Assembly (NCBI GenBank): GCA_016193065.1
Contig: JACPSX010000102.1
Span: 1 to 18,191, forward strand
From: Candidatus Tectimicrobiota bacterium
GTDB taxonomy: Bacteria; JACPSX01
DNA: 18,191 nucleotides
Reading direction: 5' to 3'
Shown here: in pieces, positions 2,743 through 17,861 of the stretch
Layout: each line of letters opens with the position of its first letter
Numbering within the stretch: position 1 is the stretch's first letter
Notes under the pieces: model-generated
Databases searched by the model: none
Seen by the model: only the letters and a program-made list of their open reading frames with translations
What the model was told of the DNA's origin: nothing
Translations under genes and position numbers: made by a program

Positions 2743-2752
2743 GCGGCAACTA

Positions 2753-2779
2753 TTGACTCCCGGATCATTTTTTTATAAG
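2753..2779 (+). promoter_or_regulatory. Predicted sigma-70 promoter for ihfA-merR
   Basis: TTGACT at 2753-2758 and TATAAG at 2774-2779 lie in an A+T-rich patch just after the SPOR gene stop. Each box matches the consensus at five of six positions, but the spacer is only 15 bases, shorter than the optimum. The next start codon is at 2898, giving a leader of roughly 110 bases. Confidence 0.5.
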
Positions 2780-2897
2780 TTAGCGTTGCTTTTTCTCCGG
2801 ATCGAACGAACCGAGTATTGAGACACTACGGCAATGAACAAAATCCCGCTCCTGGAAGAAACTTCCTCCTACGTTCCTCGTACAAAGGGGTCGCGCG

Positions 2898-3200
2898 ATG
2901 GTGAAGGCAGATATCATCGATTTCGTATACGAAAAGGTGGGGTTTACGCGAGCCGAAGCTTCTGAAGCCGTGGAGGTGGTGTTTCAGGTCGTCAAGGAGA
3001 CTCTCAATCGCGGCGAGAAGGTGCACATAGTCGGCTTTGGCAGTTTCGTCGTACGGAACAAAAAGAAAAGGCTCGGGCGCAATCCGAAAACCGGCACGCA
3101 AATTGAAATTTCTCCACGCCGGGTTCTAACCTTCAAGCCCAGCCAGATCTTAAAAGAGGTGGTCAACAACGGTACCGGCAAGCGTTCCCTGAGGACTTGA
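2898..3200 (+). CDS. ihfA: Integration host factor subunit alpha
   Basis: A 100-residue HU/IHF-family DNA-bending protein. The family signature runs from GFGSF (residues 46-50) through RNPKTG (61-66), the beta arm that inserts its proline into the minor groove. The following [15 protein letters not shown] stretch is typical of the alpha subunit rather than HU. It should pair with the IhfB encoded at 6567-6842 to form the heterodimer that bends DNA at specific sites. The ATG has a good ribosome-binding site (AAAGGGG, 7 bases upstream). It is followed by the MerR-family gene with a one-base TGATG overlap; the ihfA-merR-tRNA-Pro order is familiar from deltaproteobacterial genomes. Confidence 0.92.
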
Positions 3201-3568
3201 TGGCGACAATCCCGGATAAGCTGTTCTTCAAAATCGGAGAGGTGGCTGAAGTCACCGGAGTCGAGCCCCATGTTCTGCGCTATTGGGAAACGGAGTTCCC
3301 TCAGCTTCGCCCCATCAAGAACCGCGCCGGCCAGCGCACCTATCAGCGCAAAGACGTGGAGACCGTGATGGAAATCAAGCGCTTGCTCTATGCAGAGAAA
3401 TTCACCATTGCGGGAGCCCGGAAGCATTTCGGCCGTTCCTCCTCAACCACGGAGCAAAAACAGCTACCCCTCGGATTTACGGATCAGGAACTGGGGCGGA
3501 CTCTAGCCCAGTGCAAGAAGGAACTCGAGAGTATTCTCCAGACCCTCGATACAGGACCAGAAAAATGA
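3200..3568 (+). CDS. MerR-family transcriptional regulator
   Basis: A 122-residue protein with an N-terminal winged helix-turn-helix of the MerR type: [20 protein letters not shown] at residues 9-28, followed by WETEF and the wing region [10 protein letters not shown]. The C-terminal part is short, with a helical segment ([19 protein letters not shown]) suited to dimerisation, and there is no recognisable ligand-binding domain and no cysteine cluster for metal sensing. Start chosen at ATG 3200, overlapping the ihfA stop by one base, with GAGG five bases upstream; an in-frame TTG at 3197 is less likely. Translation is probably coupled to ihfA. Its targets cannot be read from the sequence. Confidence 0.88.
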
Positions 3569-3613
3569 TTCTCCCGATTCGCCAACGCCTATATTATTAT
3601 TGTAGGACATAGC

Positions 3614-3690
3614 CGGGGCGTAGCGCAGCCTGGTAGCGCACCTGAATGGGGTTCAGGTGGTCGCTGGTTCAAATCCAGTCGCCCCGACCA
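3614..3690 (+). tRNA. tRNA-Pro (anticodon GGG)
   Basis: A complete 77-base cloverleaf. Acceptor strands CGGGGCG (3614-3620) and CGCCCCG (3680-3686) pair perfectly, followed by discriminator A and an encoded CCA (3688-3690). The anticodon stem CCTGA/TCAGG encloses loop ATGGGGT, with anticodon GGG at 3648-3650 reading codon CCC. The T arm is GCTGG-TTCAAAT-CCAGT. It lies 45 bases after the merR-family gene and is followed by a strong terminator. Confidence 0.96.
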
Positions 3691-3722
3691 GTCTTTATAG
3701 ATAGGAAGTGGAGAACAGAGCA

Positions 3723-3757
3723 GGAAACCCCGCATTTTGCGGGGTTTCCGCATTTTT
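3723..3757 (+). terminator. Rho-independent terminator after tRNA-Pro(GGG)
   Basis: A perfect 12-base-pair stem (GGAAACCCCGCA at 3723-3734 with TGCGGGGTTTCC at 3738-3749) closes a TTT loop. It is followed after three bases by TTTTT (3753-3757). This is a strong intrinsic terminator ending only 17 bases before the pcm start codon. Confidence 0.85.
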
Positions 3758-3774
3758 CGGGACAACAAGCGGCA

Positions 3775-4416
3775 ATGGACTATGAGCTAGCACGAAACCA
3801 AATGGTGGAGCTGCAACTGCTGCAACGGGGGATCCGGGACGAACGGGTTCTCAAAGCCATGCGGAAGGTGCCCCGCCATCTCTTCGTGGAGCCCGCCCTC
3901 CGAGAGAGAGCCTATGGAGATTACCCGCTCCCCATCGGCGAGGGCCAAACGATCTCCCAGCCCTACATGGTAGGATACATGACCCAAGCTCTGGATCTGG
4001 CAGGAACCGAGAAGATCCTGGAGATTGGCACCGGCTCCGGGTACCAGGCGGCGATCCTTGCAGAGCTTGCCGAACAGGTCTTTTCCATCGAGCGCATCAA
4101 AAGTCTCGCCCTCAAAGCGCGCGAAACTCTGGATTCCCTGGGGTATCGCAATGTGGCCATCAAGATATTCGACGGCAGCTACGGGTGGGCCGAACAGGCC
4201 CCCTTTGATGCCATTTTGGTAACCGCCGGCGCCCCCAACATCCCCCCGGTTTTCATAGACCAGCTCGGGGAAGGCGGCCGGCTCGTGATTCCCGTGGGGG
4301 GGGAATCCTATCAGGTCATCCACAAAGTGACCAAGGGGGTCAAGGGAGTTCGGACCCAGAAGTTCTCCAACTGCGTTTTCGTCAAACTAATCGGAGAGCA
4401 TGGCTGGAAAGAATAG
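3775..4416 (+). CDS. pcm: Protein-L-isoaspartate O-methyltransferase
   Basis: A 213-residue SAM-dependent methyltransferase that begins repair of isoaspartyl residues in damaged proteins. The family motif GEGQTISQP is at residues 55-63, the SAM-binding loop EIGTGSGYQ at 83-91, followed by the acidic strand end FSIER and the later [11 protein letters not shown] block. Length and start match typical Pcm (about 205-215 residues, opening with an N-terminal RNQMVE-like helix). The reading frame extends further upstream through the tRNA and terminator, but that part is not coding; I use ATG 3775. The ribosome-binding site is weak (AAGCGG) and no separate promoter is clear between the terminator and the start. 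Confidence 0.93.
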
Positions 4417-4426
4417 CAGTGCAGTC

Positions 4427-4455
4427 TGGACTCTGCGGACCGCCTGCCTTATAAT
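4427..4455 (+). promoter_or_regulatory. Predicted promoter for tRNA-Pro(CGG)
   Basis: TGGACT (4427-4432) and a perfect TATAAT (4450-4455) are separated by an optimal 17 bases. The predicted start site near 4462 gives a leader of about 24 bases before the tRNA. Confidence 0.7.
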
Positions 4456-4485
4456 GGATCTATTGCACTAAGCAGACCCTTCGGT

Positions 4486-4562
4486 CGGGACGTAGCGCAG
4501 CCTGGTAGCGCACCTGCTTCGGGAGCAGGGGGTCGCTGGTTCAAATCCAGTCGTCCCGACCA
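4486..4562 (+). tRNA. tRNA-Pro (anticodon CGG)
   Basis: A complete 77-base cloverleaf. Acceptor CGGGACG (4486-4492) pairs with CGTCCCG (4552-4558), followed by A and encoded CCA (4560-4562). The anticodon stem CCTGC/GCAGG encloses TTCGGGA, with anticodon CGG at 4520-4522 reading CCG. The D arm and T arm are identical to the tRNA-Pro(GGG) at 3614. The differences are in the anticodon arm, one compensated acceptor pair and one variable-region base, so the two are close paralogues. Confidence 0.96.
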
Positions 4563-4762
4563 TTTCTTTCCGCCCTTCGAGAGACCTGAATTCCATTCTC
4601 GCACTGGACAGACCCCCCGGCCCGGCGCCCTCACAGTCCAATTTCCCCTCCGGCGGATAGCACGGACCGGCCCTCTGGACGACCGGCATAGCATTTGTAA
4701 AAGCAGATGCTTACATGGTTTTCTTAAGCGGAAGGAAAGGCCCCCGGGCAAGGCCTCTAGGA

Positions 4763-4790
4763 GCATCCTCTCGGGAACCCGAGAGTGTGC
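4763..4790 (+). promoter_or_regulatory. Leader hairpin upstream of the HDOD-GGDEF gene
   Basis: CTCTCGGG (4768-4775) and CCCGAGAG (4778-4785) are perfect inverted repeats around AA. The stem can extend through GCAT/GTGC (4763-4766 with 4787-4790) past one mismatch. It ends about 12 bases before the ribosome-binding site of the next gene and has no following T run, so it is more likely a leader structure or operator than a terminator. The rest of 4563-4812 shows no gene; I saw no match to the c-di-GMP riboswitch consensus. Confidence 0.45.
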
Positions 4791-4812
4791 AGCAGGGGAA
4801 CGGAGCAGGTTA

Positions 4813-6552
4813 ATGTCTAATCATTTTTCGGAAAATGGCCGATATAGGAAAGGAGAAAATGGGAATGGCAGCTCAAGTCTTTTTCAGCAGAGGCAGGCAA
4901 GCCGCCATTTCTTGCGGGTGCTCCACGATCCTTTGCGAAGGACTCCTAACGTGACGGCGCATGAAATCGAAGAACGCATCCTGCAAACCCAAACCCTCCC
5001 GGTGCTTCCTGCGGAGGTCAAAGATCTCATCAGCATTTCGTTAGAGGAGACCACCTCCGCCCGGGAAATAGCCTCTATGATCATGAAGAGCCCGGCCCTG
5101 TCTGCTCGCATGCTCAAGATCGTCAACTCGCCCTTCTACGGATTTCCGCGGAGAATCACCACCGTGTCTCAGGCCGTCGTGATTCTGGGGCTGCCCGCGA
5201 CACGGAACATCGCTCTCAGCCTCTCTGTCCTCGACCTGTTCCGGGGCAGGAAGAGCCTCAGGAAGCACATGCCGGCATTCCTGGAGCACTCTCTGGGAGC
5301 GGCACTGGCAGCCCAGGAGATGAGCAAGCAGCTTGCCTATCCTTTAGCCGAGGAAGCTTTTATGGCAGGACTCCTGCACGACCTGGGGGTTTTGGCCTTG
5401 ATGGAATGCATCCCCGATCTCTACGCCGGAATTCTGGCCCAGGTGGGTTCCAGTGCAGAAACCCTGGCCTCGATCGAGGAACACACTTTGGGGTTGACCC
5501 ATGCCCGAGCCGGCGGGCTCCTCTGCCAGGCCTGGGGGCTCCCCGAAGCCCTGCAGACGGCCATTTCCCAGCATCATGATCCACCCGCTGCGTGGTCCGA
5601 AGCCGACCACCAGACCCATCTCAACACGCTGGCCTTTCTGGGCAACCTGCTATCCCGCGTGCTTTCCGACTCAACCCCGGAAGCCGCGCTAGGCTTCTTG
5701 CAGAAGGAAGTCCAGCGGATCCTGAACTGGAACCCGAAGGAGATCGAGGAAATCCTGACCGTTCTCGCCATGCGAATCCGGGAAGCGGCTCCTTCTTTCG
5801 AGATTCAGGTCAGGAGTCCATCGGGTTTGCTGGAAACCATCCTGGCCGCCAACCGAAAGCTGGGGGAAATGACGCTGGCATACAGCGAACTGATTCATTC
5901 CCAAAAGGAATCCATTGAACGTCTGCGCTGCCTCGAGGAGCAATTGGAGCAGGTTAATCGAAAGCTCCACGAAATCGCCATTACGGACGATTTGACCAAG
6001 ATTCACAACCACCGTTACTTCCAGGAATGCCTCTCACGGCAGTTGGAAAAGGCAAGACGAAAGGGCGAGACCTTCTCTCTGGTCCTGATCGACCTGGATC
6101 GCTTCCGGAAAATCAACGAGCAGCACGGTCATCTCTACGGGGATCAAGTACTGCGGGAAATCGCACAGGTACTGAAAAAAACCTGTCGGACAGAGGATAC
6201 TCTGGCGCGCTACGGCGGTGAAGAATTTGCACTCCTGTTGCCGGACACGAACGCCATGGGGGCCGTCGCACTGGTGGAGCGCCTACGCAGAGAGGTCAGT
6301 GAGTTCTCAAGAGAGCTTCTTGGTTTCTCCTCGCCTTTGGCCCTGAGCGCCGGGATCTCCCAATGGACTCCGGAATCTCCCGAGACGACTGGAAAAGAAT
6401 TGCTTCGTCAGGCCGACCAAGCCCTGCTGGGGGCCAAGAGAAAAGGAGAAAACTGTTCCGCCTTCCCCGAATCGTCTTCCAAACCGAAGCCATCCCCCCG
6501 GCGCAGAATATTTCGCGTCCTGCCGATCTCCGGGTCTACAGGGAAGGGCTGA
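4813..6552 (+). CDS. HDOD domain-diguanylate cyclase (GGDEF) signalling protein
   Basis: A 579-residue cytoplasmic signalling protein. Residues 1-50 are polar. An HDOD domain covers about 62-260, opening with TLPVLPAEV and containing KSPALSARMLKIVNSPFYG and an HDLG motif (H189-D190). A helical, coiled-coil-prone linker lies at about 350-392. A GGDEF domain runs from about 395 to 560. The catalytic signature GGEEF is at 468-472, and an RTED inhibitory I-site (R459-D462) is placed exactly five residues before it, so active c-di-GMP synthesis with product inhibition is expected. HDOD domains act as input or partner-binding modules (family knowledge). ATG 4813 has GGAG seven bases upstream. It converges on ihfB with a 14-base gap and no obvious terminator. 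Confidence 0.92.
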   Translation: MSNHFSENGRYRKGENGNGSSSLFQQRQASRHFLRVLHDPLRRTPNVTAHEIEERILQTQTLPVLPAEVKDLISISLEETTSAREIASMIMKSPALSARMLKIVNSPFYGFPRRITTVSQAVVILGLPATRNIALSLSVLDLFRGRKSLRKHMPAFLEHSLGAALAAQEMSKQLAYPLAEEAFMAGLLHDLGVLALMECIPDLYAGILAQVGSSAETLASIEEHTLGLTHARAGGLLCQAWGLPEALQTAISQHHDPPAAWSEADHQTHLNTLAFLGNLLSRVLSDSTPEAALGFLQKEVQRILNWNPKEIEEILTVLAMRIREAAPSFEIQVRSPSGLLETILAANRKLGEMTLAYSELIHSQKESIERLRCLEEQLEQVNRKLHEIAITDDLTKIHNHRYFQECLSRQLEKARRKGETFSLVLIDLDRFRKINEQHGHLYGDQVLREIAQVLKKTCRTEDTLARYGGEEFALLLPDTNAMGAVALVERLRREVSEFSRELLGFSSPLALSAGISQWTPESPETTGKELLRQADQALLGAKRKGENCSAFPESSSKPKPSPRRRIFRVLPISGSTGKG

Positions 6553-6918: not shown

Positions 6919-7770
6919 CTACTCCTTGCCGGAGTGAGAGAGCCACCACTCAGCGATCTCGCGACGGCGAGCAAACCAGACCCGATCGTGACTGCGAGCG
7001 TAGTCCAAAAATTGAGCCAATGCTCCGGCCCGCCCGGGCCTGCCGGTGACGTGAGGGTGAATTCCCACCGTCATTAACATCGGGTTCGATTCCCCTTCCT
7101 CGTAAAGATGATCGAACTCATAGGTGAGCACATCAACCACCTCCTGAGGGGTTTTGTTGCTCTGCAAGAAAAGCCGGTAATCATTCAGGATCAGGCTATA
7201 GGGGATCTCCACCAACTCTCCATTCCCCGCCGTAACCAGGTAGGGAAGATCATCGTTGAGGAAGTCACCATGCCATGTGAAACCGTACTGGGCCAAAAGT
7301 CTAAGAGTCCTGTCTGTGCACCGGCACCCCGGGGACAGCCAACCCTGCGGCTTCTGTCCCGTCGCCTTCTCAATGGCAGCAACGCTCCGCCTGATGGCCT
7401 CTTCTTCCTCCTCGTCGTTCATGCTGACCAGAGAGACGCTTTGATCGTAAGAGTGCGCGGCAACTTCATGGCCCCGGTCATAAATCTCCTTGATCACCTC
7501 CGGGTGGCGCTCGGCGGCCAGCCCGCTGACGACGGCCGTCGCTTTCACTTCCCGCTGCTCCAGGACGTCCAGGAGCCGCCATAGACCCGCCCGGTACCCG
7601 TATTCTCGATCCGTGATCGTGGGAAAATCCCTGCGCGTAACCGCATCGGCCGGAATGGGATTCATGTAAGGGGCAGCCTCTTCCCGAGACCACTCCTCAA
7701 TGTTCAATACCAGGCTTACAGCAATCCTGGCCCCATCCGGCCAGCCGGCATGGTTCCTTCGAGCATTCAT
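6919..7770 (-). CDS. Polysaccharide deacetylase-fold hydrolase, PuuE/cyclic-imidase-like
   Basis: A 283-residue NodB-homology protein without a signal peptide, so probably cytoplasmic. Family blocks are WPDGARIAVSLVLNIEEW (10-27), GHEVAAHSYDQS (100-111), GWLSPG (143-148) and the C-terminal HPHVTGRPGR (238-247) followed by VWFARRREIAEWW. These match the subgroup of peptidoglycan deacetylase PgdA, allantoinase PuuE and cyclic imidases. The usual DD metal pair of motif 1 is replaced by NIEE, and motif 2 has H106 but no second histidine, resembling the PuuE-type altered site. Hydrolysis of a cyclic imide or ureide is therefore as likely as deacetylation; the substrate is unknown. ATG 7770 is chosen because AAAGGAGG lies upstream; an in-frame TTG at 7803 is less likely. 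It starts 37 bases after the metallo-beta-lactamase gene, forming an operon. Confidence 0.85.
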   Translation of the reverse strand: MNARRNHAGWPDGARIAVSLVLNIEEWSREEAAPYMNPIPADAVTRRDFPTITDREYGYRAGLWRLLDVLEQREVKATAVVSGLAAERHPEVIKEIYDRGHEVAAHSYDQSVSLVSMNDEEEEEAIRRSVAAIEKATGQKPQGWLSPGCRCTDRTLRLLAQYGFTWHGDFLNDDLPYLVTAGNGELVEIPYSLILNDYRLFLQSNKTPQEVVDVLTYEFDHLYEEGESNPMLMTVGIHPHVTGRPGRAGALAQFLDYARSHDRVWFARRREIAEWWLSHSGKE

Positions 7771-7807
7771 CGTTCGCTGTTCCTCCTTTAGGTCCCGCCA
7801 CAATCAT

Positions 7808-8845
7808 CTAGGAATTTGCGCGTCCGGCAATGCGCCGTTCTCTGCCTGCAGCGGCAACATTTCGGTAACGAACCAAGCCGTTTTCTTGCGCTTTTTCCGC
7901 CTGCCCCTCCGCCACCAAATGCTCCAAATGGGCCAGAGTTTCCGCCAGAGCAAAACGTCTGGCCTGGTCGGGTAGATTCTTGCCAAAGAGTTTTTGGGAT
8001 AAAGTGTACGGGGTCGAGCCCCTGCGGGTCATCAGGGACAAGAGGGTGTGTAGACGGCGCTGATGATGGAGGATGAGCTCCTCCACCCTGCCCCGAACAT
8101 CTTCAAAAGGCTCTCCGTGGGCGGGGAAAGCCAGCTTGACCGGGAGCTGGCTCACCTTTTCGAGAGAAGTGAGGTAACTCCCCAGGGGCTGTGGGTTGCT
8201 AAGAGGGAAGAGGCCAATGTTCGGAGTGATCCGGGGCAGCAGGTGATCGCCGACCCAAAACAACCCGGTCTCCGCTTCGAACAGGCAGAGATGACCCGGC
8301 GAATGGCCGGGAGTAATGATCGCCTGAAGACGCCGCCTCCCGACGATGATCGCATCACCCTCATTGACCGCGGTCACCTCCTGCACCGGATCAATGTGAG
8401 AGCCTAGTCGGACCCGCTGGGCATGGAGTCGGGCAATGAGGGAACGGGGCATGCCGCTTTGCTCCAGCATCTGGTGAATCGCCCGATCTGCGTTGCTGCC
8501 TGGATCGTACCAGTTATGGCCTAACATCTCGTATTCAGAGGAGGACATGACGATCCTGGCTCCCGTCATGGACTGTATGGTCCCGGCCATCCCCAAATGA
8601 TCCGGGTGGTAATGGGTCACCACGATGGTCGAAATGTCCCCCGGTGCAATGCCGATCATTCTTAGCGCGGCCTGAAAATGGGCCAGTGCCTTGGAAGTGT
8701 GCAAGCCACAGTCCACCAGGCAGGCTTCTCCATTGCCTTCGATCAGATAACAATTCACCACCTCGACGGGGAAGGGTAAAGGAAGCTTCAAAACCCAGCA
8801 CCCCGGGGAAATCTCCTCCACGTCGCCTGTCCCCTGATGGACCAT
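7808..8845 (-). CDS. Metallo-beta-lactamase-fold hydrolase
   Basis: A 345-residue MBL-fold protein with a complete dinuclear metal site: THYHPDH (77-83), H185 in GHSPGH, D200 in VGDHLL and H243 in PAHGEP. The order matches the glyoxalase II/LACTB2-like branch. After the core (about 255-330) is a helical C-terminal region resembling the winged-helix tail of LACTB2-like proteins. Likely a thioester, lactone or other hydrolase; the substrate cannot be read. ATG 8845 is chosen, with AGGGGAA upstream; an in-frame TTG at 8902 would add 19 residues but has its purine-rich site too close. It is the first gene of a minus-strand pair with the deacetylase-like hydrolase, suggesting a shared catabolic or detoxifying step. 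Confidence 0.88.
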   Translation of the reverse strand: MVHQGTGDVEEISPGCWVLKLPLPFPVEVVNCYLIEGNGEACLVDCGLHTSKALAHFQAALRMIGIAPGDISTIVVTHYHPDHLGMAGTIQSMTGARIVMSSSEYEMLGHNWYDPGSNADRAIHQMLEQSGMPRSLIARLHAQRVRLGSHIDPVQEVTAVNEGDAIIVGRRRLQAIITPGHSPGHLCLFEAETGLFWVGDHLLPRITPNIGLFPLSNPQPLGSYLTSLEKVSQLPVKLAFPAHGEPFEDVRGRVEELILHHQRRLHTLLSLMTRRGSTPYTLSQKLFGKNLPDQARRFALAETLAHLEHLVAEGQAEKAQENGLVRYRNVAAAGRERRIAGRANS

Positions 8846-9098
8846 CGCTGCGGTTCCCCTGGCCCTTTTCAGGCCGCTTCCCGAGGGATTTTCCTTAGTC
8901 AACCTTACTTACGGATCCCCAGCGGAAGACGGCCGGTGCAAATTTTGTGGATCCCTGCCAGCCAAAACTCAAGCATTTCGCGACTTTTAACAGTGCCATT
9001 CTAAGGAAAACCTCCGGATCACGCAACTGCTTTCGAAACCTGAGGACTGAAATCCGGACCAGTGTTCCTATATCCTGAGTCCCGGAAGGTCGAAGTAC

Positions 9099-9290
9099 AG
9101 TGGGCTTCGGGGCTCCCTTCGCTCCCGGGTACCCGCCTTGCGGGTGTCCACAGCGACCCTACCGGGCCTGCGCTCGGACGAACCTTCCGGAATTCCCTGC
9201 GGTCAGTTCCGGCTTTCATCCGGCGCAGGCCTCGGGGGGTTCCCCCGCTGCTCCGTCCACGTTCCGCTACGGGAGTCCTCTCAGCCCACT
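9099..9290 (+). ncRNA. Candidate structured RNA or palindromic repeat element
   Basis: Nested inverted repeats fold into a branched shape. The outer helix is AGTGGGCT (9099-9106) with AGCCCACT (9283-9290), eight perfect pairs. Directly inside, GGGCTCCC (9110-9117) pairs with GGGAGTCC (9271-9278), eight pairs including one G-U that is allowed only on the plus strand. Inner arms are 9124-9131 with 9160-9166 around hairpin ACCCGC-CTT-GCGGGT; GCCTGCGC (9166-9173) with GCGCAGGC (9223-9230) around CCGGAA/TTCCGG; and hairpin CGGGGG-GTT-CCCCCG (9233-9247). No known RNA family was recognised. It could instead be a dispersed palindromic repeat. Confidence 0.4.
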
Positions 9291-9292
9291 TT

Positions 9293-9316
9293 TCCTGTGA
9301 AACAGGATTTAATTCT
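9293..9316 (+). terminator. Possible weak terminator after the structured element
   Basis: TCCTGT (9293-9298) and ACAGGA (9302-9307) form a six-pair hairpin with a GAA loop, followed by an A/T-rich stretch (TTTAATTCTTT). The stem is short and the T tract interrupted, so this is tentative, but its position three bases after the outer helix fits the end of a small transcript. Confidence 0.3.
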
Positions 9317-9378
9317 TTGTTGGGAGTCCGCTTTTTGCCCGTCAACATCACACTTTTCGCAATAGAGCCCTGCTTCTC

Positions 9379-9408
9379 TTGACAAGCCCCGTTGATCGCT
9401 GGTAGGTA
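9379..9408 (+). promoter_or_regulatory. Possible promoter of the SLOG-fold gene
   Basis: A perfect TTGACA lies at 9379-9384. The best -10 candidate at 18 bases (TAGGTA, 9403-9408) is poor, so the call depends on the -35 box and on its place 95 bases before the start codon. Confidence 0.35.
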
Positions 9409-9438
9409 AGTATCCGGCTATCTTTTTTCGAACCGGAG

Positions 9439-9457
9439 TCGATTCAATGGGAATCGA
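9439..9457 (+). promoter_or_regulatory. Small leader hairpin before the SLOG-fold gene
   Basis: TCGATTC (9439-9445) and GAATCGA (9451-9457) are perfect inverted repeats with a five-base loop, eight bases ahead of the AGGAGG ribosome-binding site. TCGAACC also occurs twice, at 9428-9434 and 9454-9460. Could be an operator or a translation-modulating hairpin. Confidence 0.3.
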
Positions 9458-9478
9458 ACCAGCAAGGAGGAAGGCGTC

Positions 9479-9952
9479 GTGAGGACGGTGGCAGCCGTTA
9501 TCGGCGGAGGAGTCTGCGACCAGGAAACGACCCTGCTCGCTGAAAAGGTTGGGGAACAGCTTGCAGAACGAGGCGTGGTATTGGTCTGCGGAGGGCTGGG
9601 CGGGGTCATGGAAGCGGCCGCTCGCGGGGCCAAGAGAGCAGGGGGCACCACAGTGGGAATCCTGCCTGGATTCTCCGCCCAGGAAGCCAACCCATACATC
9701 GATATCCCGATTGTCACGGGACTCAGCCACGCCCGCAACGCCATCGTCGTGCGCAGCGCGAAAGTCGTGATCGCCTTACCAGGTGAATACGGCACCCTGT
9801 CCGAAATCGCCCTGGCCCTCAAGATGAGAATTCCCGTGATTGCCCTAAACGCGTGGTACAGTCAGGAAGGGGTGATCCACGCGAAAACCCCCGAGGAAGC
9901 GATACAAAAGGCCCTCAAATCCATCCCAGGCCTTGCCGACGGAAATCGGTAA
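9479..9952 (+). CDS. SLOG-fold (TIGR00725-like) protein
   Basis: A 157-residue Rossmann-like protein of the SLOG superfamily, which includes LOG cytokinin phosphoribohydrolases, DprA and the TIGR00725 group. A glycine-rich start IGGGVC (8-13) is followed by the nucleotide-binding CGGLGGVMEAAARGA (37-51) and PGEYGTLSEIA (101-111), equivalent to the LOG PGGxGTxxE motif with one glycine changed to glutamate. ARNAIVVRSA (85-94) is also typical. Such proteins bind nucleotides or nucleotide-derived ligands; the reaction of this subgroup is not established. GTG 9479 has a strong AGGAGG eight bases upstream. The stop codon is part of a terminator stem. Confidence 0.88.
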   Translation: MRTVAAVIGGGVCDQETTLLAEKVGEQLAERGVVLVCGGLGGVMEAAARGAKRAGGTTVGILPGFSAQEANPYIDIPIVTGLSHARNAIVVRSAKVVIALPGEYGTLSEIALALKMRIPVIALNAWYSQEGVIHAKTPEEAIQKALKSIPGLADGNR

Positions 9953-10002
9953 TCCCGCAGGACATTCTCTTCCTGGGCGGCCTCTGCCGGGATTTGCTTT
10001 TT
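9951..10002 (+). terminator. Rho-independent terminator overlapping the SLOG gene stop
   Basis: AATCCCG (9951-9957) pairs with CGGGATT (9988-9994), and CAG (9958-9960) with CTG (9984-9986), with one bulged C. TTGCTTTTT (9994-10002) follows. The loop is long (23 bases), so strength is uncertain. Confidence 0.5.
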
Positions 10003-10075
10003 CCTTGTCCTCTAGGGGAAACTGGTTTATCCTTGGCTCTTCGGAATTCGACGATTCCCGTGCGAGCTGGCTCTT

Positions 10076-10610
10076 ATGGCGGACACCACCGTTCCTCAGG
10101 AGAACAAGATCCTCACAGTGGACGACCTAAAGGAAAAGATCCGAGACATCCCGGACTTTCCCCAGAAGGGGGTTCTCTTTAAGGACATTACACCCTTACT
10201 GAAAGACCCCACCTGCTACCGCAGGGCCATTGAGCTCATTGCTTCCCGCTACCGGGACCGGAACATCAACCTGGTCGTGGGGGTCGAGGCCCGCGGCTTC
10301 ATGCTGGGGAGCCGGGATCGTTCCCATTCGCAAAGCCGGAAAACTCCCCTATCGCACCCTCAAGGCCACCTACCAGCTCGAATACGGCACGGACCAACTG
10401 GAGGTCCACCAGGATGCCATCCAGGCCGGAGACCGGGTTTTAATCATCGACGATTTGCTGGCCACGGGGGGAACCGTAGGCGCCGTCATCACCCTGGTGG
10501 AGCAGCTCAAGGGTCAAATTATCGGCCTTGCGTTCCTCGTCGAACTCACTTTTCTCGAGGGCCGAAAAAAGATCCCCGGCTTCGAGACTTATTCCCTGAT
10601 TCAATTTTAG
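10076..10610 (+). pseudogene. apt: Adenine phosphoribosyltransferase, broken by an internal deletion
   Basis: Adenine phosphoribosyltransferase makes AMP from adenine and PRPP in purine salvage. The first part, from ATG 10076 to about 10309, reads IRDIPDFPQKGVLFKDITPL and VVGVEARGFMLG. The second part, in a different frame from about 10311 to the TAG at 10608-10610, reads AGIVPIRKAGKLPYRTLKA, LEYGTDQLEVH and the PRPP-binding VLIIDDLLATGGT. Compared with E. coli Apt as I recall it, about eight residues between ARGFxxG and xGxVPxRK are missing, a net loss near 23 bases that explains the frame change. Everything else is intact. A ribosome-binding site is weak. As it stands no functional Apt is made; an assembly error is an equal possibility. 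Confidence 0.88.
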
Positions 10611-10634
10611 GCATCCTACGGAGGGAGGGACCCC

Positions 10635-13165
10635 ATGAGAGGAAGACTGCTCCTCATTCTTTTTTTCCTACTGGCCGCCTTCTCCCTGGGAGAGGTAATC
10701 TCCCTCATGATTCTGTCATTTTTATCGAGAACCCGGTTTTGGGGCTTCCGGATCGCCACCTCATCGTCCCGGTTCTGAAAGCTCTCCTGGTGCCGGCCTG
10801 TCTGACCATCGGCGTCCTGGCCGCTTTGCCCTTCTGGAGTCAGTGGAGCACCGCGCTGAAGTTTTTCTACCCCTCCGCGTTCCAGCTCTCGGATCCACTG
10901 TTCGGCAACGACATCAGTTTCTACGTCTTCGGGCTCCCATTCCTGCGTCTCTTGTATCGGGGGATCATGGCTTCCCTGACCCTGGGACTTCTCTCCGCTG
11001 CGGCGATCTACCTGTTCAACCGGGCAATTCACATCCTGCCCCGGGGAGTGGGCACGACGAGGCAGGCCCGGGCCCACCTGCTGGTGGGCGGCGCGCTCCT
11101 GCTGCTGGCCAAAGCCTGGGGATACCGCCTGGAAGCCTACGATCTCCTCTTCTCTCCCCGCGGGGTCGCCTTTGGCGCCAGTTATACCGATGTTCACGCC
11201 GATCTTCCCGTCCTCAAACTTCTCGTGGTGCTTTCCCTGGCATGTGCGCTGCTTCTTCTCATCTCCGTGTTCCGCCGGGGCTGGAAGCTCCCGGTGACGG
11301 GCTTTGTCGCACTCATTGCCGTCTCCATACTGGGCAAGGGGCTCTTCCCGGGTCTCCTGCAGCGCTTCAGTGTGGCTCCCAACGAGATTGCCATGGAGCG
11401 CCCCTACATCGATCTCAACATCAAATACACCCGGCAAGCCTTCGGTCTCAACAATATCGAAGAACGTGAGTTCCCTGCCGACGAAAACCTCACCTGGGGG
11501 ACCATCCAGCGCAACGAAGCCACCGTTCAGAACATCCGTCTTTGGGACACCAAGCCCCTGCTTACAAGCTACAGTCAGCTCCAGGAAATCCGCACCTATT
11601 ACAAATTCGTCGACATCGATGTGGACCGGTACGTGATCAACGGCCGCTACCGTCAGGTGACCTTATCCCCGCGGGAAATCTCCTACAAGGATCTGCCCAG
11701 CAAGATCTGGATCAATGAGCGCCTCAACTACACCCACGGATACGGCATCGTCATGGGACCCGTGAACCTGGTCACGGCGGAAGGACTTCCGGAATTCTTC
11801 ATCAAGGACATCCCTCCCCGGTCCCTGGACAGCGTGGAGGTCCGGCGCCCGGAGATCTACTTCGGGGAGATCCCCAATGATTATGTCTTCGTGAAAACCA
11901 AGGCCCAAGAATTCGACTACCCCTCGGGAGATCGCAACGTCTACTCGACCTATGCCGGGACGGGAGGGGTTCCTCTCTCTTCGTTCTGGCGGAAAGCGCT
12001 GTTTTCGATGCGCCTGGGCAGTCTGAAAATTCTCCTCTCCAACGACCTGACCCCGGAAAGCCGGATCCTCCTCTACCGGGACATTCGCCAGAGAGCCTCC
12101 CGGATTGCCCCGTTTTTACGTTACGATTCGGACCCCTACGTCGTCGTAACTGGAGAGGGCAAACTCTTCTGGATCCTGGACGCCTATACGGTCAGTTCCA
12201 TGTATCCCTATTCTGAACCGGTGCGGGGGATCGGCAACTACATTCGAAATTCCGTAAAGGTCGTCATCGACGCTTACAACGGCACCGTCCACTATTATGT
12301 GAGCGATCCTCAGGATCCGATCGTGCAAACCTACGCCCGGATTTTTCCCGACCTGTTCAAGCCCCTGGACACCATGGCAGCCGATCTGAAAGCCCACCTG
12401 CGCTATCCGGAAGGCCTGTTTTCGGTGCAGGCTCAGGTGTATGCCACCTATCACATGCAGGATTCTCAGGTGTTTTACAACAAAGAAGACTTATGGAGCC
12501 TGCCCGTGCGCGGCAGTGATAAAGGGCAGCCCATGGAGCCCTACTTCACGATCATGAAGCTTCCCGGCGAAACCAAGGAAGAGTTCATCTTGCTCGTTCC
12601 CTTTACTCCCAGCCGCAAGGACAACATGTCGGCCTGGCTGGCGGCGCGCAACGACCTGCCGAACTACGGCAAGCTGATCGTGTACAATTTCCCCAAGCAA
12701 AAGCTCATCTTCGGGCCCCGGCAGATCGAAGCCCGGATCGACCAGGATGCCGAGATCTCTCAGCAGATCTCCCTGTGGAACCAGACAGGTTCCCAGGTCA
12801 TCCGCGGCAACCTCCTGGCGATTCCGATCGAGACCTCCCTCATTTATGTGCAGCCTCTCTACCTGGCCGCCGCCCAGGGGCAGCTCCCCGAGCTGAAGAG
12901 GGTCATCGTCGCTTACGGCAACAGGATCGTCATGGAAGAGAATCTGGAACGGGCTCTGACCTCCCTTTTCCGGAGCGGGGCCGCACCGCGCCCCGTTGCG
13001 CCGGGCCCGGTGGCAAAGCGGGGCGTTGAGACCCAGGCACAGAAGGCCATGGAAGCATACAACCGGGCGCTGCAGTACTTGCGAGAGGGGAACTGGGCCT
13101 CCTACGGCCAGGAAGTCAATCGACTCGGGGAATTATTGCGGGAAATGTCCAGGCAATCCAAATAA
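10635..13165 (+). pseudogene. UPF0182-family membrane protein, N-terminal deletion and frame change
   Basis: A large multi-pass membrane protein of unknown function (UPF0182, usually about 900 residues). The true start is ATG 10635 with a strong GGAGGGAGGG site; it reads MRGRLLLILFFLLAAFSLGE and then stops at 10776-10778. The family sequence resumes in another frame from about 10706 (ENPVLGLPDRHLIVP) and runs cleanly for about 820 codons to 13165. It has several membrane segments (about 10770-11340) and a long extracytoplasmic part with APNEIAMERPYI, EIRTYYKFVDIDVDRY, VFVKTKAQEFDYP and DAYNGTVHYYV. The C-terminal region ends in the usual Pro-rich linker and helical YNRALQYLREGNW block. A stretch that should hold the second membrane segment is missing. 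It lies 24 bases after apt. Confidence 0.85.
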
Positions 13166-13283
13166 GCCCGATTAGACTCTCTGGGTAACTAAGGCATTTG
13201 ACCCACAAAATTCAACCAAAAACCCTATTTACGAACCGGAACGATTTGTGTAATTTCCACAAGAACTTAGGGAGGAACTGTCT

Positions 13284-14408
13284 GTGGTCCGAACAGAACT
13301 GAGCCAAGTTCTCTGCGATCCGCTGGGATTCAGCCGCCAGTGGTCCCGGGAGGGGTGCCGGGTCATGGGCTGCTTGGACAACTACGTTCCCGAGGAATTC
13401 ATCCATGCCGAGGAAATGATCCCCCTGCGCCTCTTGGGGTCTACGGAGAGCGTGACGCTGGCCGATACTTTCCTCCCTGTCTTTGCCGGCAAGCTGGCCC
13501 GCAGCATCCTGGAGCAGGCCCTGCAGGGAAACCTCGTCCACCTGGCGGGTATCGTCCTCTCCAACAGCAGCGATGCGGTGCGGATGCTCTACGACCTGTG
13601 GGAGCGCCACATCCCGGGGCAGTGGGTTGCCTTGATCGATGTCCCCGCCATCCTGGAAGGAGAGACCAACCACCGGGTTTTCCGGCAGGCCATGCTGGAG
13701 TTTAAAGAGAAACTGGAAAAGTTCACGGGCAAGCCTCTGGAGGCCGCCGCCTTGCGCCGCAGCATCGCCGTCTTCAACGAAAACCGCCGCCTGCTGAAAA
13801 AAGCTGCCGCCCTGTTGAGTGCCTCGCCGCCTCGATTGAGTGCCGAGACCTACCTGGATGCGGTTCTCAGCGGGTTCGTGCTTACGAAGGAGAAACATAA
13901 CGAGTACCTTCGGCAACTCCTGGAATCCTGCCGGCGGGAGACTCCCGACAGGGGAGGGCAACTCGTTCCCCTGCACATTTCCGGTCCCATCCTGGTGGAT
14001 CGATCCTTTCTCCCTCTCCTCCAGGAATGCGGCGCCACCATGGCCTCCGAAGACCTGGGTACCGGGAGCCGCTATTACTGGGACGAAGTTGATGAGACGG
14101 GAGATCCCATCGAGGCCGTCATCGAGCGGTACTGGAGGAAAATTCCGGACTCCTACAAGACGCCCATGAAACCCCGCTGGCTTCATCTGCTCTCCCAGAT
14201 CGAGCGCAGCAAGGCCAGGGGGGTCATTTTCGTCATCGAGAAATACTCCGATGAAGATCAGTATGACTACCCGGTATGGCGGGATCGATTGCGCGCCCGC
14301 GGCATTCCGTCTTTGCTGCTCGATTCCGAGCTGGTCCTGGAAGGCGAACAGGTGCGCACGCGCGTACAGACCTTCGTTGACATTGTGAGGGGAGGGGCCT
14401 TTTCATGA
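13284..14408 (+). CDS. 2-hydroxyacyl-CoA dehydratase/benzoyl-CoA reductase-family subunit (HgdB/BcrC-like), cysteine-poor
   Basis: A 374-residue HGD-D family protein, similar in length and motif order to the smaller subunits (HgdB, BcrC/BadD). Blocks seen are NYVPEEFIHAEEMIPLRLLG (33-52), NSSDAVRMLYD (94-104), EKLEKFTGK (142-150), FNENRRLL (164-171), SEDLGTGSRYYWD (255-267) and RARGIPSLLLDSE (337-349). In the family, cysteines near the VPEE, CD-x-VR, DLCTGSR and KFCD positions serve cluster binding or are conserved; here these read D32, S96, G259 and S322. The protein may thus lack its own [4Fe-4S] cluster. GTG 13284 has GGGAGGA upstream. It overlaps the next gene by ATGA, so the two are co-translated. 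Family membership is secure; substrate is unknown. Confidence 0.87.
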   Translation: MVRTELSQVLCDPLGFSRQWSREGCRVMGCLDNYVPEEFIHAEEMIPLRLLGSTESVTLADTFLPVFAGKLARSILEQALQGNLVHLAGIVLSNSSDAVRMLYDLWERHIPGQWVALIDVPAILEGETNHRVFRQAMLEFKEKLEKFTGKPLEAAALRRSIAVFNENRRLLKKAAALLSASPPRLSAETYLDAVLSGFVLTKEKHNEYLRQLLESCRRETPDRGGQLVPLHISGPILVDRSFLPLLQECGATMASEDLGTGSRYYWDEVDETGDPIEAVIERYWRKIPDSYKTPMKPRWLHLLSQIERSKARGVIFVIEKYSDEDQYDYPVWRDRLRARGIPSLLLDSELVLEGEQVRTRVQTFVDIVRGGAFS

Positions 14409-15646
14409 CGACTACCGCTCCGAAGAAGAAGGGGAGGGCACTGAACTCCTCTTACGAAGCCGCTATTGTCCTCAAGGAGTACTGGGAAGGAGCCGCCCGC
14501 CACCGGGCCGAGGGCCGCCCCGTGGCCTGGGTGTCGGGCAATGTACCCATCGAGCTCTTTTGGGCGCTGGGCATCTACCCCGTGTATCCGGAAAACTACT
14601 CGGCCGTCTGCGCCTCCATTCAACGCGCTCAGGAACTCTGTGAGGAGGCGGAAGAGAGGGGCTACTCGATTGATTTGTGCTCCTACAGCCGGGTCAACCT
14701 GGGAATCGTGCTCGGCAAGGGAGTTGACCATCCGGATCTCCCCTATGGTGGACTCCCCCGCCCCGATATGCTGGTCACCACCCGGATTCCGTGCCTCCCT
14801 CAAGTGAAGTGGTGGGAGGTCGTGCGGGAATTCTTCGATATCCCCATGTTCGTCGTCGATGCCACGATGGTGGATCTCCCAATCCGCGAGTCCCAGCGCC
14901 AGCACTACCTGGGCCAGATCCGGGAGCTGATCCCCTGCCTGGAGAAGAAACTTGGAGTTCGCTTTCAGGAGGACACGTTCCTGGAAACTTTGAAACTTTC
15001 CGACCGGGCGGCGGAGATCTGGCTCGAACTCCTGGATCTTCGTACGGCCGTACCCAGCCCGGTGGGGAGCCGGGAAATGTGCGGCAACGTCTTCCCACTG
15101 GTTGCCATGCTGGGAAACCCGAGGACCATCGAGTTTTTTACCCACCTCCGGGACGAGGCCAAACAGTGCGTCCAGGAGGGCAAAGGGGCTCTGGAAAACG
15201 AGCGGATCCGGCTCGGCTGGGACAACATCCCCATGTGGTACAACCTGAAATTCTTCAGCGACGTGGAAGATCGAAACGCGATTTTTACCTATGAGACCTA
15301 CCTGCGCTACGTCTGGGGAGGCCGCATGGACTTAAACGACCCCTGGACCGCATTTGCCGACAAGCACCTGGATGTCTGGCTCAACTACAGCATCAACCAG
15401 CGGGTCCGCACCCTTCTTCATGACATCGTCAAGTTCAAACTGGACGGCCTCGTCTTCCACCAAAACCGCAGTTGCAAACGGTTCTCCATGGGTCAACGGG
15501 ACCTGGCTCAGGTCATTCAGGAGAACCTCGGAGTTTCGAGCCTGTTTATCGAGTCCGATATGGCGGATCCCAGGGCGTACGCGGAAGCTCCGACCCGGGT
15601 AAAAATGGAGGCGTTCCTGGAAATGCTGGAGGGGAAAAAGAGCTGA
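14405..15646 (+). CDS. 2-hydroxyacyl-CoA dehydratase/benzoyl-CoA reductase-family subunit (BcrB-like)
   Basis: A 413-residue HGD-D family protein resembling the larger subunits HgdA and BcrB/BadE. Blocks include PVAWVSGNVPIELFWALGIYP (39-59), DLCSYSRVNLG (90-100), IPCLPQVKWWE (128-138) and FHQNRSCKRFSMGQ (351-364), with APTRVKMEAFLEML at the C-terminus. C92, C130 and C357 stand where the family places its three [4Fe-4S] ligands, so this subunit should carry the active-site cluster. In the known enzymes the cluster receives an electron from an ATP-driven activator to dehydrate a 2-hydroxyacyl-CoA or reduce an aromatic acyl-CoA, reactions typical of strict anaerobes. The ATG overlaps the previous stop and the stop overlaps the activator's ATG by one base, indicating one operon. 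Confidence 0.9.
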   Translation: MTTTAPKKKGRALNSSYEAAIVLKEYWEGAARHRAEGRPVAWVSGNVPIELFWALGIYPVYPENYSAVCASIQRAQELCEEAEERGYSIDLCSYSRVNLGIVLGKGVDHPDLPYGGLPRPDMLVTTRIPCLPQVKWWEVVREFFDIPMFVVDATMVDLPIRESQRQHYLGQIRELIPCLEKKLGVRFQEDTFLETLKLSDRAAEIWLELLDLRTAVPSPVGSREMCGNVFPLVAMLGNPRTIEFFTHLRDEAKQCVQEGKGALENERIRLGWDNIPMWYNLKFFSDVEDRNAIFTYETYLRYVWGGRMDLNDPWTAFADKHLDVWLNYSINQRVRTLLHDIVKFKLDGLVFHQNRSCKRFSMGQRDLAQVIQENLGVSSLFIESDMADPRAYAEAPTRVKMEAFLEMLEGKKS

Positions 15647-16452
15647 TGTACTATGCCGGGATCGACGCGGGATCCAACACGATCAAGACCGTGATCTTAG
15701 GTGAAGAGGGGATTGCTTCCTACCACGTGATTAAGACGGGGCTGGGCGGGGAAGAGCAGGCCGCCCGCTGTCTGGAAGAGGCTTGTGCAAAGGCCCGCAT
15801 CGGCCGCGAGGAGATCGCCTGCATCTACTGTACCGGCTATGGCAGGGAGTATCTCAACTTTCCCCAGGGGCGCAAGAGCGAAATCATCTGCCACGGCGTC
15901 GGCGTGCACTGGATCCTTCCGGAGGTCCGAACGATCGTCGACATCGGCGGCCAGGACAGCAAGGGCATCCGCCTCAACGAGCGGGGAGAGGTGGAGAACT
16001 TCAACATGAACGACAAGTGCGCGGCCGGAACCGGCCGCTTCCTAGAGACCATGGCGACCGCCTTGCAGGTCCCCCTGGAAGAGTTCGGGGCGTGTGCCTT
16101 GCGAGCGACTGAACCCGTACGGGTGAGCAGCACCTGCACGGTCTTTGCCGAAACCGAGGTTATCTCTCACATCGCCCGCGGGAAAAAGAGAGATGAGATC
16201 CTCCTGGGGGTCTGCCAGTCCATTGTTGACCGGATTGCCGCCATGGTGCGCAGCATCGGGGTCAAGCCACCCGTCGCCATGACCGGGGGTGTGGCTAAGA
16301 ACCCGGCCGTTGTCAAGCTCATGGGGGACCGGCTGGGCCTCCCGCTACTGCTGCCTCCCGAGCCCCAAATCACGGGGGCTCTGGGCGCGGCGCTCATGGC
16401 CCGCCAGGACATCCTCTCCCGCCAGAATTCCCAGCCGGCCCTGAGCGGATAG
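15646..16452 (+). CDS. ASKHA-type ATP-dependent activator (HgdC/BcrA-BcrD family)
   Basis: A 268-residue member of the BadF/BadG/BcrA/BcrD/HgdC family. The homodimer bridges one [4Fe-4S] cluster and uses ATP to drive a very low-potential electron into the partner enzyme. Seen are GIDAGSNTIK (5-14, phosphate 1), DIGGQDSKGI (99-108), MNDKCAAGTGRFLE (121-134) with bridging C125, SSTCTVFAETEVI (161-173) with C164, and MTGGVAKNPAVV (212-223, adenosine motif). ATG 15646 overlaps the preceding stop; the same frame runs further upstream inside the previous gene but that part is not coding. There is only one such gene, as for 2-hydroxyacyl-CoA dehydratases; Thauera-type benzoyl-CoA reductase has two different ones. 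This favours a dehydratase-like system, if the operon is complete. Confidence 0.93.
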   Translation: MYYAGIDAGSNTIKTVILGEEGIASYHVIKTGLGGEEQAARCLEEACAKARIGREEIACIYCTGYGREYLNFPQGRKSEIICHGVGVHWILPEVRTIVDIGGQDSKGIRLNERGEVENFNMNDKCAAGTGRFLETMATALQVPLEEFGACALRATEPVRVSSTCTVFAETEVISHIARGKKRDEILLGVCQSIVDRIAAMVRSIGVKPPVAMTGGVAKNPAVVKLMGDRLGLPLLLPPEPQITGALGAALMARQDILSRQNSQPALSG

Positions 16453-16476: not shown

Positions 16477-17469
16477 TTACAGTCCCAGAGACTTGAAGAA
16501 CCCCTCCTTCTCGAGCTCATCGAGAAAGCTGGTGTCCACGAAGTCGGCGGGCTTGGCCTGCTTGGCCTTGGGATGGTCTTTGGCGATGTCATCGAGCAAG
16601 AACTGGATCCCCTCCAAAGTGGGGTAGGGTTTGTTGGGAACCATCCTTACAAAGGCCTTGTAACCAGATTCCAGGACATCCCTGTCAGGATTCCGCATGT
16701 ACTGGGACATGATGGCCTTGGTTTCTTTCTCGTGCGTCTTGATGTAGCGGACGGCTTCTGCATAGCCCTTGACCACCGCCTTCACGGTGCTCCGGTTGGC
16801 CTTGATGTAGGTGCGGGTCGTGGCGAGCCCGTTGCCCTGAATGGGAACATTCAGATCCGCGATATCCAGGAGCTCTTTGTAGCCCAGCTTCAGGGCTGTG
16901 GGAACCTCGGAGGGGCTTAAGATGGTTCCGTCGATCCCTCCTGCCTTCAAGGCTGCAATCCGCTTGCTTGTCCCCCCGGTCTGCAAAATCATAACGTCCC
17001 GGTTCGGATTCAGCCCCAGATGCTTGAGGGCGATGAGCATGGCGTTATGCGAAGCGGATCCAAAGCCGCTCACGCCCAACTTCGTCCCCTTTAGGTCCTG
17101 GGCCTTGCTGACGTCGGGCTTGGTAATGAGGGAATAAGCATAGGTGTTTTCCGAGGCTGCCACCAGGACTGCGTCCGAGCCCGCCAGGTTGGCCTGCACG
17201 ATCGTTCCAATGTTGACAAAGGGGGCTTCCCCGGCCACCAGAGCCTGGGTGGCGACCCTTCCTCCCTCGATGAAGACGAGCTCCGCCTCAATCCCATGCT
17301 TCTTGAAAATCCCGGCCTCCTTCCCCACCCAGATGTGGATCTGGTTGTAGGAGATGGCCGGATAGGCAATGCGCACCGTTTTGATGCTTCCCTGGCCATG
17401 CGCCGTACTGACGGACAGCGACAAGGCCACGGTGAGAACAAGCCACAAAAAAGTCGATCGACTTTTCAT
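16477..17469 (-). CDS. NMT1/TauA-like periplasmic substrate-binding protein
   Basis: A 330-residue secreted protein of the NMT1/THI5-SsuA/TauA type, which delivers sulfonates, nitrate, pyrimidine precursors or aromatic carboxylates to ABC importers. A clear signal peptide (MKSRSTFLWLVLTVALSLSV, then STAHG/QG) opens it. The mature part shows VRIAYPAISYNQIHIWVGKE, EAGIFKKHGIEAELVFIEGG, GTKLGVSGFGSASH and ALKAGGIDGTILSP, the usual two-lobe pattern. No lipobox cysteine is seen. ATG 17469 is chosen because GGAGGTGTGAG precedes it and the signal peptide starts there; an upstream in-frame extension lacks these. No permease or ATPase gene is near. Its 3' end faces the dehydratase operon across 24 bases with no terminator seen. 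Confidence 0.92.
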   Translation of the reverse strand: MKSRSTFLWLVLTVALSLSVSTAHGQGSIKTVRIAYPAISYNQIHIWVGKEAGIFKKHGIEAELVFIEGGRVATQALVAGEAPFVNIGTIVQANLAGSDAVLVAASENTYAYSLITKPDVSKAQDLKGTKLGVSGFGSASHNAMLIALKHLGLNPNRDVMILQTGGTSKRIAALKAGGIDGTILSPSEVPTALKLGYKELLDIADLNVPIQGNGLATTRTYIKANRSTVKAVVKGYAEAVRYIKTHEKETKAIMSQYMRNPDRDVLESGYKAFVRMVPNKPYPTLEGIQFLLDDIAKDHPKAKQAKPADFVDTSFLDELEKEGFFKSLGL

Positions 17470-17551
17470 CTCACACCTCCATCCATTCGAGAACTTCAAT
17501 CTCTCCAGAAAAGACAGCAATGCCAATCTTTTTAATGTGTTAGACAACCAC

Positions 17552-17580
17552 TTCGTATCATAATCGGTCCCGAATGTCAA
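17552..17580 (-). promoter_or_regulatory. Predicted promoter of the substrate-binding protein gene
   Basis: On the minus strand, a perfect TTGACA (17580-17575) is followed after 17 bases by TACGAA (17557-17552), preceded by a TG extended -10 element. The start site near 17545 gives a leader of about 75 bases. Confidence 0.5.
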
Positions 17581-17861
17581 TTTCGAAGTAAGTTCATCCA
17601 TCACCGCCACATGCCCAAGCTCAAAGGCGCAGGTCCTTCCCTCAAGACTCCCAAAACCATGCGCTCAGTTCAAGCTCTTCGCGAGTCTCTGAAAAGGGGA
17701 GGGTGGAAACCTGCAGTGGACTGAAGATTCTCCGTAGAAACCGGGAACCTCGCTTGCTCCTTGCAGTTCCGAGAAGAGGTGGGTATGATAGCCGGGAACA
17801 TTTAGGAGAGACCAGAAGCCACCTCTTCCAGAGTAGTTCAAGTTCCAAAACTTGGCGAGGT
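17581..17861. other. Gene-free stretch between divergent units
   Basis: The intergenic region runs from 17470 to 17861 between the substrate-binding protein gene and tRNA-Arg. It contains the two divergent promoters listed separately. Otherwise I see no gene: a 68-codon minus-strand open frame has no ribosome-binding site or recognisable motif. Confidence 0.6.
17761..17789 (+). promoter_or_regulatory. Predicted promoter for tRNA-Arg and the downstream TPR gene
   Basis: TTGCAG (17761-17766) and TATGAT (17784-17789) are spaced by 17 bases. The predicted start near 17796 gives a leader of about 65 bases before the tRNA. Confidence 0.5.

Follow-up and report, generated by a model that had tools for sequence, protein, structure and literature searches.

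Can a radical enzyme whose known relatives carry an iron-sulfur (Fe-S) cluster in each of two subunits make do with only one of them? The question is posed by three coupled genes on the plus strand of contig JACPSX010000102.1 from a Candidatus Tectimicrobiota bacterium (18,191 bases, analysed whole and here termed 'the window'), which encode in order a small and a large subunit of the HGD-D family and an ATP-dependent ASKHA activator. Characterised enzymes of this kind have a cluster in both subunits (PMC8473912, PMC11574389, PMC11971306), in agreement with a preliminary description of this DNA. The small subunit encoded here has lost every cysteine of the cluster-ligand positions, is predicted to contain no Fe-S cluster and, as set out below, is much more likely to be a selected, cluster-free subunit than a decaying one. 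No earlier report of a cysteine-free subunit in this family was found in the limited set of literature searched.

What exactly has been lost is best judged against BzdN, the small subunit of class I benzoyl-CoA reductase (BCR), whose [8Fe-9S] double cubane is held by Cys36, 73, 100, 263, 293 and 327 (PMC11971306). With the ligand columns set by alignment on BzdN, none of the six cysteines is retained (Table 1). The preliminary description had placed D32, S96, G259 and S322 at former cysteine positions and was right in all four; the alignment adds two more lost ligands, G69 and D289. The three-cysteine site of the beta-type subunit of 2-hydroxyacyl-CoA dehydratases (HAD; CoA, coenzyme A) is equally lacking, its positions being occupied by G69, S96 and S322 throughout the clade described below. 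Since neighbouring lineages carry all six cysteines, the site that disappeared was probably the six-ligand double-cubane site, beyond the HadC-type three-ligand site.

Could other residues have stepped in? The small subunit has C11, C25, C30, C216 and C249, none of which occupies a ligand position. The preliminary description had itself named two findings that would undo it, ligation by C25, C30, C216 or C249 and retention of the cysteines in close homologues; C25 and C216 are unconserved, C30 and C249 lie off the ligand columns, and no close homologue retains the lost residues. A cluster held instead by oxygen ligands (S96, S322 and D32), serine and aspartate being known though rare cluster ligands (PMC11574389), or by a displaced cysteine, for which C249 as the only one invariant in the clade would be the candidate, is very hard to credit: the inner ligand Cys73 has become glycine, C249 precedes the strand that runs to the ligand column and stands ten residues away from this column, and C30, outside the published ligand positions, is tyrosine in the orthologue L027 and aligns with a cysteine present in 23 other homologues including HadC, where it is not a ligand.

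The vacated site has a distinctive lining. Acids at D32, D/E289, E319, E324 and D325 are invariant in the clade at or beside the former cluster contacts, R49 and R263 (BzdN Arg53 and Arg267) are retained and Arg290 has become lysine (K286), the BzdN equivalents of these basic residues facing the cluster. The carboxylates would fill the emptied site, may pair with R49, R263 and K286 and may stand in for the charge of the lost cluster. A more adventurous view is that the site was rebuilt for another relay cofactor, for instance a flavin or a metal coordinated by carboxylate and serine side chains: the clade conserves S96 and S322 along with the acids, and in seven-residue windows at four lost ligands 82% of positions are invariant, compared with 56% overall (p about 0.01 against random windows; about 0.05 when all six sites are used). 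Nevertheless, the retained basic residues could simply neutralise the acids, no histidine has been gained in the columns inspected, and we know of no homologue with a metal or flavin cofactor in the small-subunit site, which leaves such rebuilding improbable.

The loss is not peculiar to one assembly. One scan of the genome collection yielded five orthologues of about 67-80% identity in metagenome-assembled genomes labelled Deltaproteobacteria or Acidobacteria, and searches for orthologues at strict E-values, covering one phylum (395 genomes) and one class (38 genomes), added no genomes to those known. All five lack the six cysteines and share the replacements save for glutamate in place of aspartate at 289, with position 32 missing in the truncated L028; the loss, whose breadth the preliminary description had left for checking, thus extends to all six genomes of the clade. 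The full set of six cysteines is present in 86 of 137 homologues, and most others keep the inner three, positions that are cysteine in at least 90% of the rows of a 91-row alignment; total loss is confined to the six-genome clade and one very divergent pair (L071) whose large subunit is also short of one ligand. In a small-subunit tree built without the ligand columns the clade stands on a single branch (support by the Shimodaira-Hasegawa-like approximate likelihood ratio test, SH-aLRT, 100; stem length 0.95) among six-cysteine rows and apart from the three-cysteine HadC/MbdN group, and therefore loss is the simpler reading. Its sister in the large-subunit tree is the L081-L087 group (SH-aLRT 94), whose small subunits hold all six cysteines.

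Moreover, the second cluster may have been lost on more than one occasion. In a lineage elsewhere in the tree (L105/L145/L174, in genomes G341, G417 and G230) two of the three inner ligands have given way to Asp and Phe/Asn (pattern LCDCFF/N), Cys73 and Cys263 being retained, and in G341 and G417 the partner subunit still has its three catalytic cysteines. A gene resembling phenylacetate-CoA ligase, named by eye from its sequence, adjoins the small-subunit gene in G341 and G230. Two further loci deserve mention in their own right. The divergent pair L109/L071 (G061:C60, 3744-6299), in the genome of the orthologue L027, has no ligand cysteine at the six small-subunit columns and threonine at the third catalytic ligand of its large subunit, and is possibly a non-redox paralogue. 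In the small subunit L091 (364-1527) serine replaces Cys263 but the other five cysteines are present, a possible example of stepwise ligand loss.

Nor does the small subunit look like a decaying protein. The AlphaFold (AF2) model of the small subunit has a predicted local distance difference test score (pLDDT) of 92.9 and superposes on BzdN (8s02_B) with a Z-score of 48.1 and a root-mean-square deviation of 1.9 over 370 residues at 26% identity, and on HadC with a Z-score of 45.9 over 369 residues. In the small gene the ratio of nonsynonymous to synonymous substitution rates (dN/dS) is 0.11-0.19, compared with 0.03-0.09 in the large one, where computable. This roughly twofold faster evolution of the small subunit, together with the broken copy in L028, might be taken to mean that it is dispensable, with the large subunit acting alone or with another partner. 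In the other genomes, however, the small gene is open, coupled and under purifying selection, and the windows at the former cluster belong to its better-conserved parts; decay was rejected on dN/dS and conservation, and a dispensable subunit is a highly improbable explanation. It is the combination of clade-wide cysteine loss, intact fold and purifying selection that makes a selected cluster-free subunit, as first proposed in the preliminary description, much more likely than decay.

The partners of this subunit are conventional by comparison. Both subunits score far above the gathering score of 28.4 bits of the HGD-D profile (PF06050; Table 1), the activator reaches 203.8 bits against the BcrAD_BadFG profile, the ATG of the large-subunit gene overlaps the small-subunit stop (ATGA) and that of the activator gene has one base in common with the large-subunit stop (TGATG), all of which bears out the initial assignment of two HGD-D subunits and one ASKHA activator in overlapping genes. 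Among solved structures the small subunit matches BzdN (4.7e-42) and HadC (8e-41), and the nearest to the large subunit and activator are HadB and HadI. No NCBIfam equivalog is assigned to either subunit, the best scores falling far under the cut-offs: 192.5 against 750 bits for HadB and 162.6 against 700 for HadC of (R)-2-hydroxyisocaproyl-CoA dehydratase, 142 against 453.8 for bzdN and 114.3 against 448.6 for bzdO. As also foreseen, the cluster ligands of both partners are kept. C125 and C164 of the activator stand within the conserved motifs NDKCAAGTG and SSTCTVF that it has in common with HadI, and C92, C130 and C357 of the large subunit align with Cys95, Cys128 and Cys380, the ligands of the catalytic cluster of BzdO (PMC11971306), so that the three-cysteine catalytic (alpha) site is complete.

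What kind of active site surrounds that cluster? Over nine active-site columns the large subunit reads V W E C C Q C K W, compared with V W E C C V C K W in HadB, S W E C C H C E L in BzdO and A Y E C C F C R S in MbdO; it is identical to HadB in eight and to BzdO in five. His131, Glu381 and Leu302 of BzdO are replaced by Q133, K358 and W304, and the Glu65/His131 acid/base pair of BzdO is broken, the glutamate being kept as Glu63 and the histidine column, the least certain one, holding Gln133. The operon has a single activator gene, whose product carries two cluster cysteines per monomer, as in HAD, and not the two different activator subunits of class I BCR. The operon should be filed neither as HAD nor as BCR, because a defining cluster site of each was looked for and is absent. 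Yet a dehydratase-like enzyme is indicated by the active-site residues of the partner and by the presence of only one activator gene, and it probably works like HAD minus one cluster.

How would it do so? In HAD a single electron from the activator enters the second-subunit cluster, from which it is relayed 12 Å to the catalytic cluster and in which it is stored between turnovers, one ATP-driven activation serving at least a thousand cycles (PMC8473912, PMC11574389). With the second-subunit cluster gone the electron would have to go straight to the catalytic cluster, a changed electron path. The BzdO cluster is reached by a water chain that docking of the activator has been proposed to close (PMC11971306), and therefore a close approach of the activator is conceivable. 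A homodimeric activator, after ATP hydrolysis, would send one electron directly into the large-subunit cluster, bypassing the small subunit; the electron would reduce the bound CoA thioester to a ketyl radical, a dehydratase-type elimination would follow and the electron would return to the same cluster. Having no second cluster in which to park it, the enzyme would lose its electron more readily and need ATP re-activation more often. Component D of Acidaminococcus was reportedly once described with a single [4Fe-4S] cluster, and reviews give one cluster per subunit.

As to its place in metabolism, the genes around the orthologues indicate benzoyl-CoA-linked ring catabolism, some CoA thioester of which would be the substrate. 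A gene for the ring hydrolase Oah lies upstream on the same strand in L025, L029 and L026 (TIGR03200, 532.5, 524.9 and 465.7 bits; cut-off 464.45), with genes for a Dch-like hydratase, a short-chain dehydrogenase/reductase (SDR), a thiolase and a DUF35-like protein in between in L025 and L029 and at least an SDR in L026. In G059, G060 and G063 the Oah adjoining the operon is the only one above the cut-off, and none reaches it in G061 or G062. In L027 the operon is adjoined by BamB (6.3e-236 to 4z3w) and BamC (5.9e-50), and BamB relatives of 79-80% identity are present in G063 and G059. The genome of the window (G000) has on contig C149 a canonical bzdNOPQ set (bzdN 553.3, bzdO 699.8 and bzdQ 498 bits, all above cut-off) with two activators, the second beside the bzdNOPQ genes. 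That contig (L038, L044) also has acyl-CoA dehydrogenase-like genes and, scoring under the Oah cut-off, two hydrolases resembling Oah/BadI, and anaerobic breakdown of aromatics by this organism is probable. Other genomes of the clade have further HGD-D genes, several of them bzd- or Mbd-like. Given these separate bzdNOPQ, bzd- or Mbd-like genes or BamB, the operon most likely encodes an additional enzyme; its candidacy as the organism's main benzoyl-CoA, and thus dearomatising, reductase is disfavoured.

It could still be an unusual ATP-dependent aryl-CoA or enoyl-CoA reductase that has done away with the two-electron buffer normally provided by the double cubane, its large-subunit cluster receiving two electrons one after the other, directly from the activator. 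The collinear Oah in three genomes, with the Dch-like hydratase, SDR, thiolase and DUF35 protein in two of them, is the gene set expected of a benzoyl-CoA pathway cluster, and the neighbouring small-subunit lineages carry six BzdN-type cysteines. However, every genome examined has other HGD-D genes or BamB able to serve as aryl-CoA reductase, the complete bzdNOPQ of the window's own genome and the BamB next to the operon in L027 among them; there is one activator gene rather than two, and the three BzdO active-site residues are changed. A reductase is accordingly possible though doubtful. A dehydratase-like reaction is favoured over it, because a redox-neutral elimination, which needs only one recycled electron, should be less affected by the absence of the second cluster than a reduction that takes two electrons. 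Our preferred reading is of a dehydratase-like radical enzyme of aromatic-ring catabolism, with a single [4Fe-4S] cluster in the large subunit of its catalytic dimer fed directly by the activator, and our belief and our doubt in this reading as a whole are evenly balanced.

The doubt has several sources. Published HAD schemes give both electron entry and electron storage to the very cluster that is gone (PMC11574389). The HAD-like signature amounts to nine columns, three of them common ligands, and the His131 column is insecure, the BzdNO paper giving alanine in HadB where our alignment has valine. The small gene of L028 carries a frameshift and is about 20 residues short, and broken activator frames occur in L025 and L028; assembly error or decay may be responsible. 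The window's genome, 86% complete, has no Oah above the family cut-off, the neighbours of the operon in the window are not aromatic-catabolism genes, and adjacency to Oah elsewhere could instead suggest a ring reductase.

Those inclined to generalise might envisage a whole class of radical enzymes, driven by ATP and acting on CoA esters, whose second subunit had its entry and storage cluster deleted in at least two independent losses, leaving a carboxylate site, possibly with a non-Fe-S metal, and an activator firing directly into the catalytic cluster; we consider this unlikely. Even the more modest reading has consequences. The clade would extend the published series of cluster reduction by one step, from a double cubane in both subunits, to one in one subunit, to a single cubane, to none. 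According to the authors of the BzdNO study, assigning the electron paramagnetic resonance (EPR) signals would take single-cluster variants, and Cys-to-Ala variants were too unstable to obtain (PMC11971306). The clade would be a natural single-cluster version in which the role of the second cluster becomes directly testable, and in particular its necessity for relaying and storing the electron.

The positions of the operon, of the lost ligands and of the second lineage are collected in Table 1. Two open reading frames (ORFs) antisense to the operon, 13212-14186 and 14267-15145 on the minus strand, were taken as by-products of high G+C coding. Elsewhere in the window, apt (adenine phosphoribosyltransferase) is seemingly split over two frames (10076-10610), its N-terminal part being residues 15-79 of the 10076-13165 ORF, which runs in frame into a UPF0182 gene, and the remainder lying in the 10230-10610 ORF, either by frameshift or by assembly error. 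On the minus strand, 6919-8902 encodes a metallo-beta-lactamase-fold hydrolase (364 residues) beside an allantoinase/polysaccharide-deacetylase-like protein (294 residues), and 16477-17610 an NMT1/SsuA-like periplasmic binding protein convergent with the activator gene.

Table 1. Features of the operon in the window, codons at the former ligand positions of its small subunit, and loci of the second lineage with ligand loss
Feature	Position	Strand	Remarks
Shine-Dalgarno-like GGGAGGA	13270-13276	+	Precedes GTG start of small subunit; read from sequence
Small HGD-D subunit, BzdN/HadC/beta type, 374 residues	13284-14408	+	GTG start, TGA stop; all six cluster-ligand Cys replaced; PF06050 216.7 bits
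D32 codon	13377-13379	+	BzdN Cys36 column
G69 codon	13488-13490	+	BzdN Cys73 column, inner ligand
S96 codon	13569-13571	+	BzdN Cys100 column, inner ligand
G259 codon	14058-14060	+	BzdN Cys263 column
D289 codon	14148-14150	+	BzdN Cys293 column; Glu in orthologues
S322 codon	14247-14249	+	BzdN Cys327 column, inner ligand
Large catalytic HGD-D subunit, HadB/BzdO/alpha type, 413 residues	14405-15646	+	C92/C130/C357; PF06050 214.2 bits; HadB 3.6e-50
ATP-dependent activator, ASKHA, 268 residues	15646-16452	+	C125/C164; TIGR00241 256.4 bits (cut-off 125.4); HadI 1.9e-66
Second lineage, L105/L110 (G341)	8040-10714		
Second lineage, L195 (G417)	3060-5524		
Second lineage, L196 (G230)	2694-3902		

The operon can be set beside the closest known systems. 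With BzdN/BzdO of class I BCR (PDB 8s02) it has in common the small-subunit fold and the three ligands of the large subunit, whereas the six cysteines and [8Fe-9S] cluster of BzdN are all gone, His131 of BzdO is glutamine and two activator paralogues are represented by one. (R)-2-hydroxyisocaproyl-CoA dehydratase, HadBC with HadI (PDB 3o3m, 4eht), is alike in its HGD-D heterodimer, its one activator gene and its near-identical large-subunit columns, but HadC holds its cluster on three cysteines where G69, S96 and S322 now stand. The 3-methylbenzoyl-CoA reductase MbdONPQ (PDB 9g87, 9gai) has the same fold and similar relatives in genomes carrying the clade; MbdN, however, retains the inner three cysteines, there are two activator subunits and the active-site columns differ. 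The double-cubane cluster protein (DCCP; PDB 6eno, 7yzm) is alike in fold and activator type, yet it is a homodimer with a six-cysteine double cubane in each subunit, whereas here there are two different subunit genes and no ligand cysteine in the small one. Comparable too is the L105/L145/L174 lineage, where ligand loss in the small subunit likewise goes with an intact partner (G341, G417), though with two of the old cysteines, Cys73 and Cys263, still in place.

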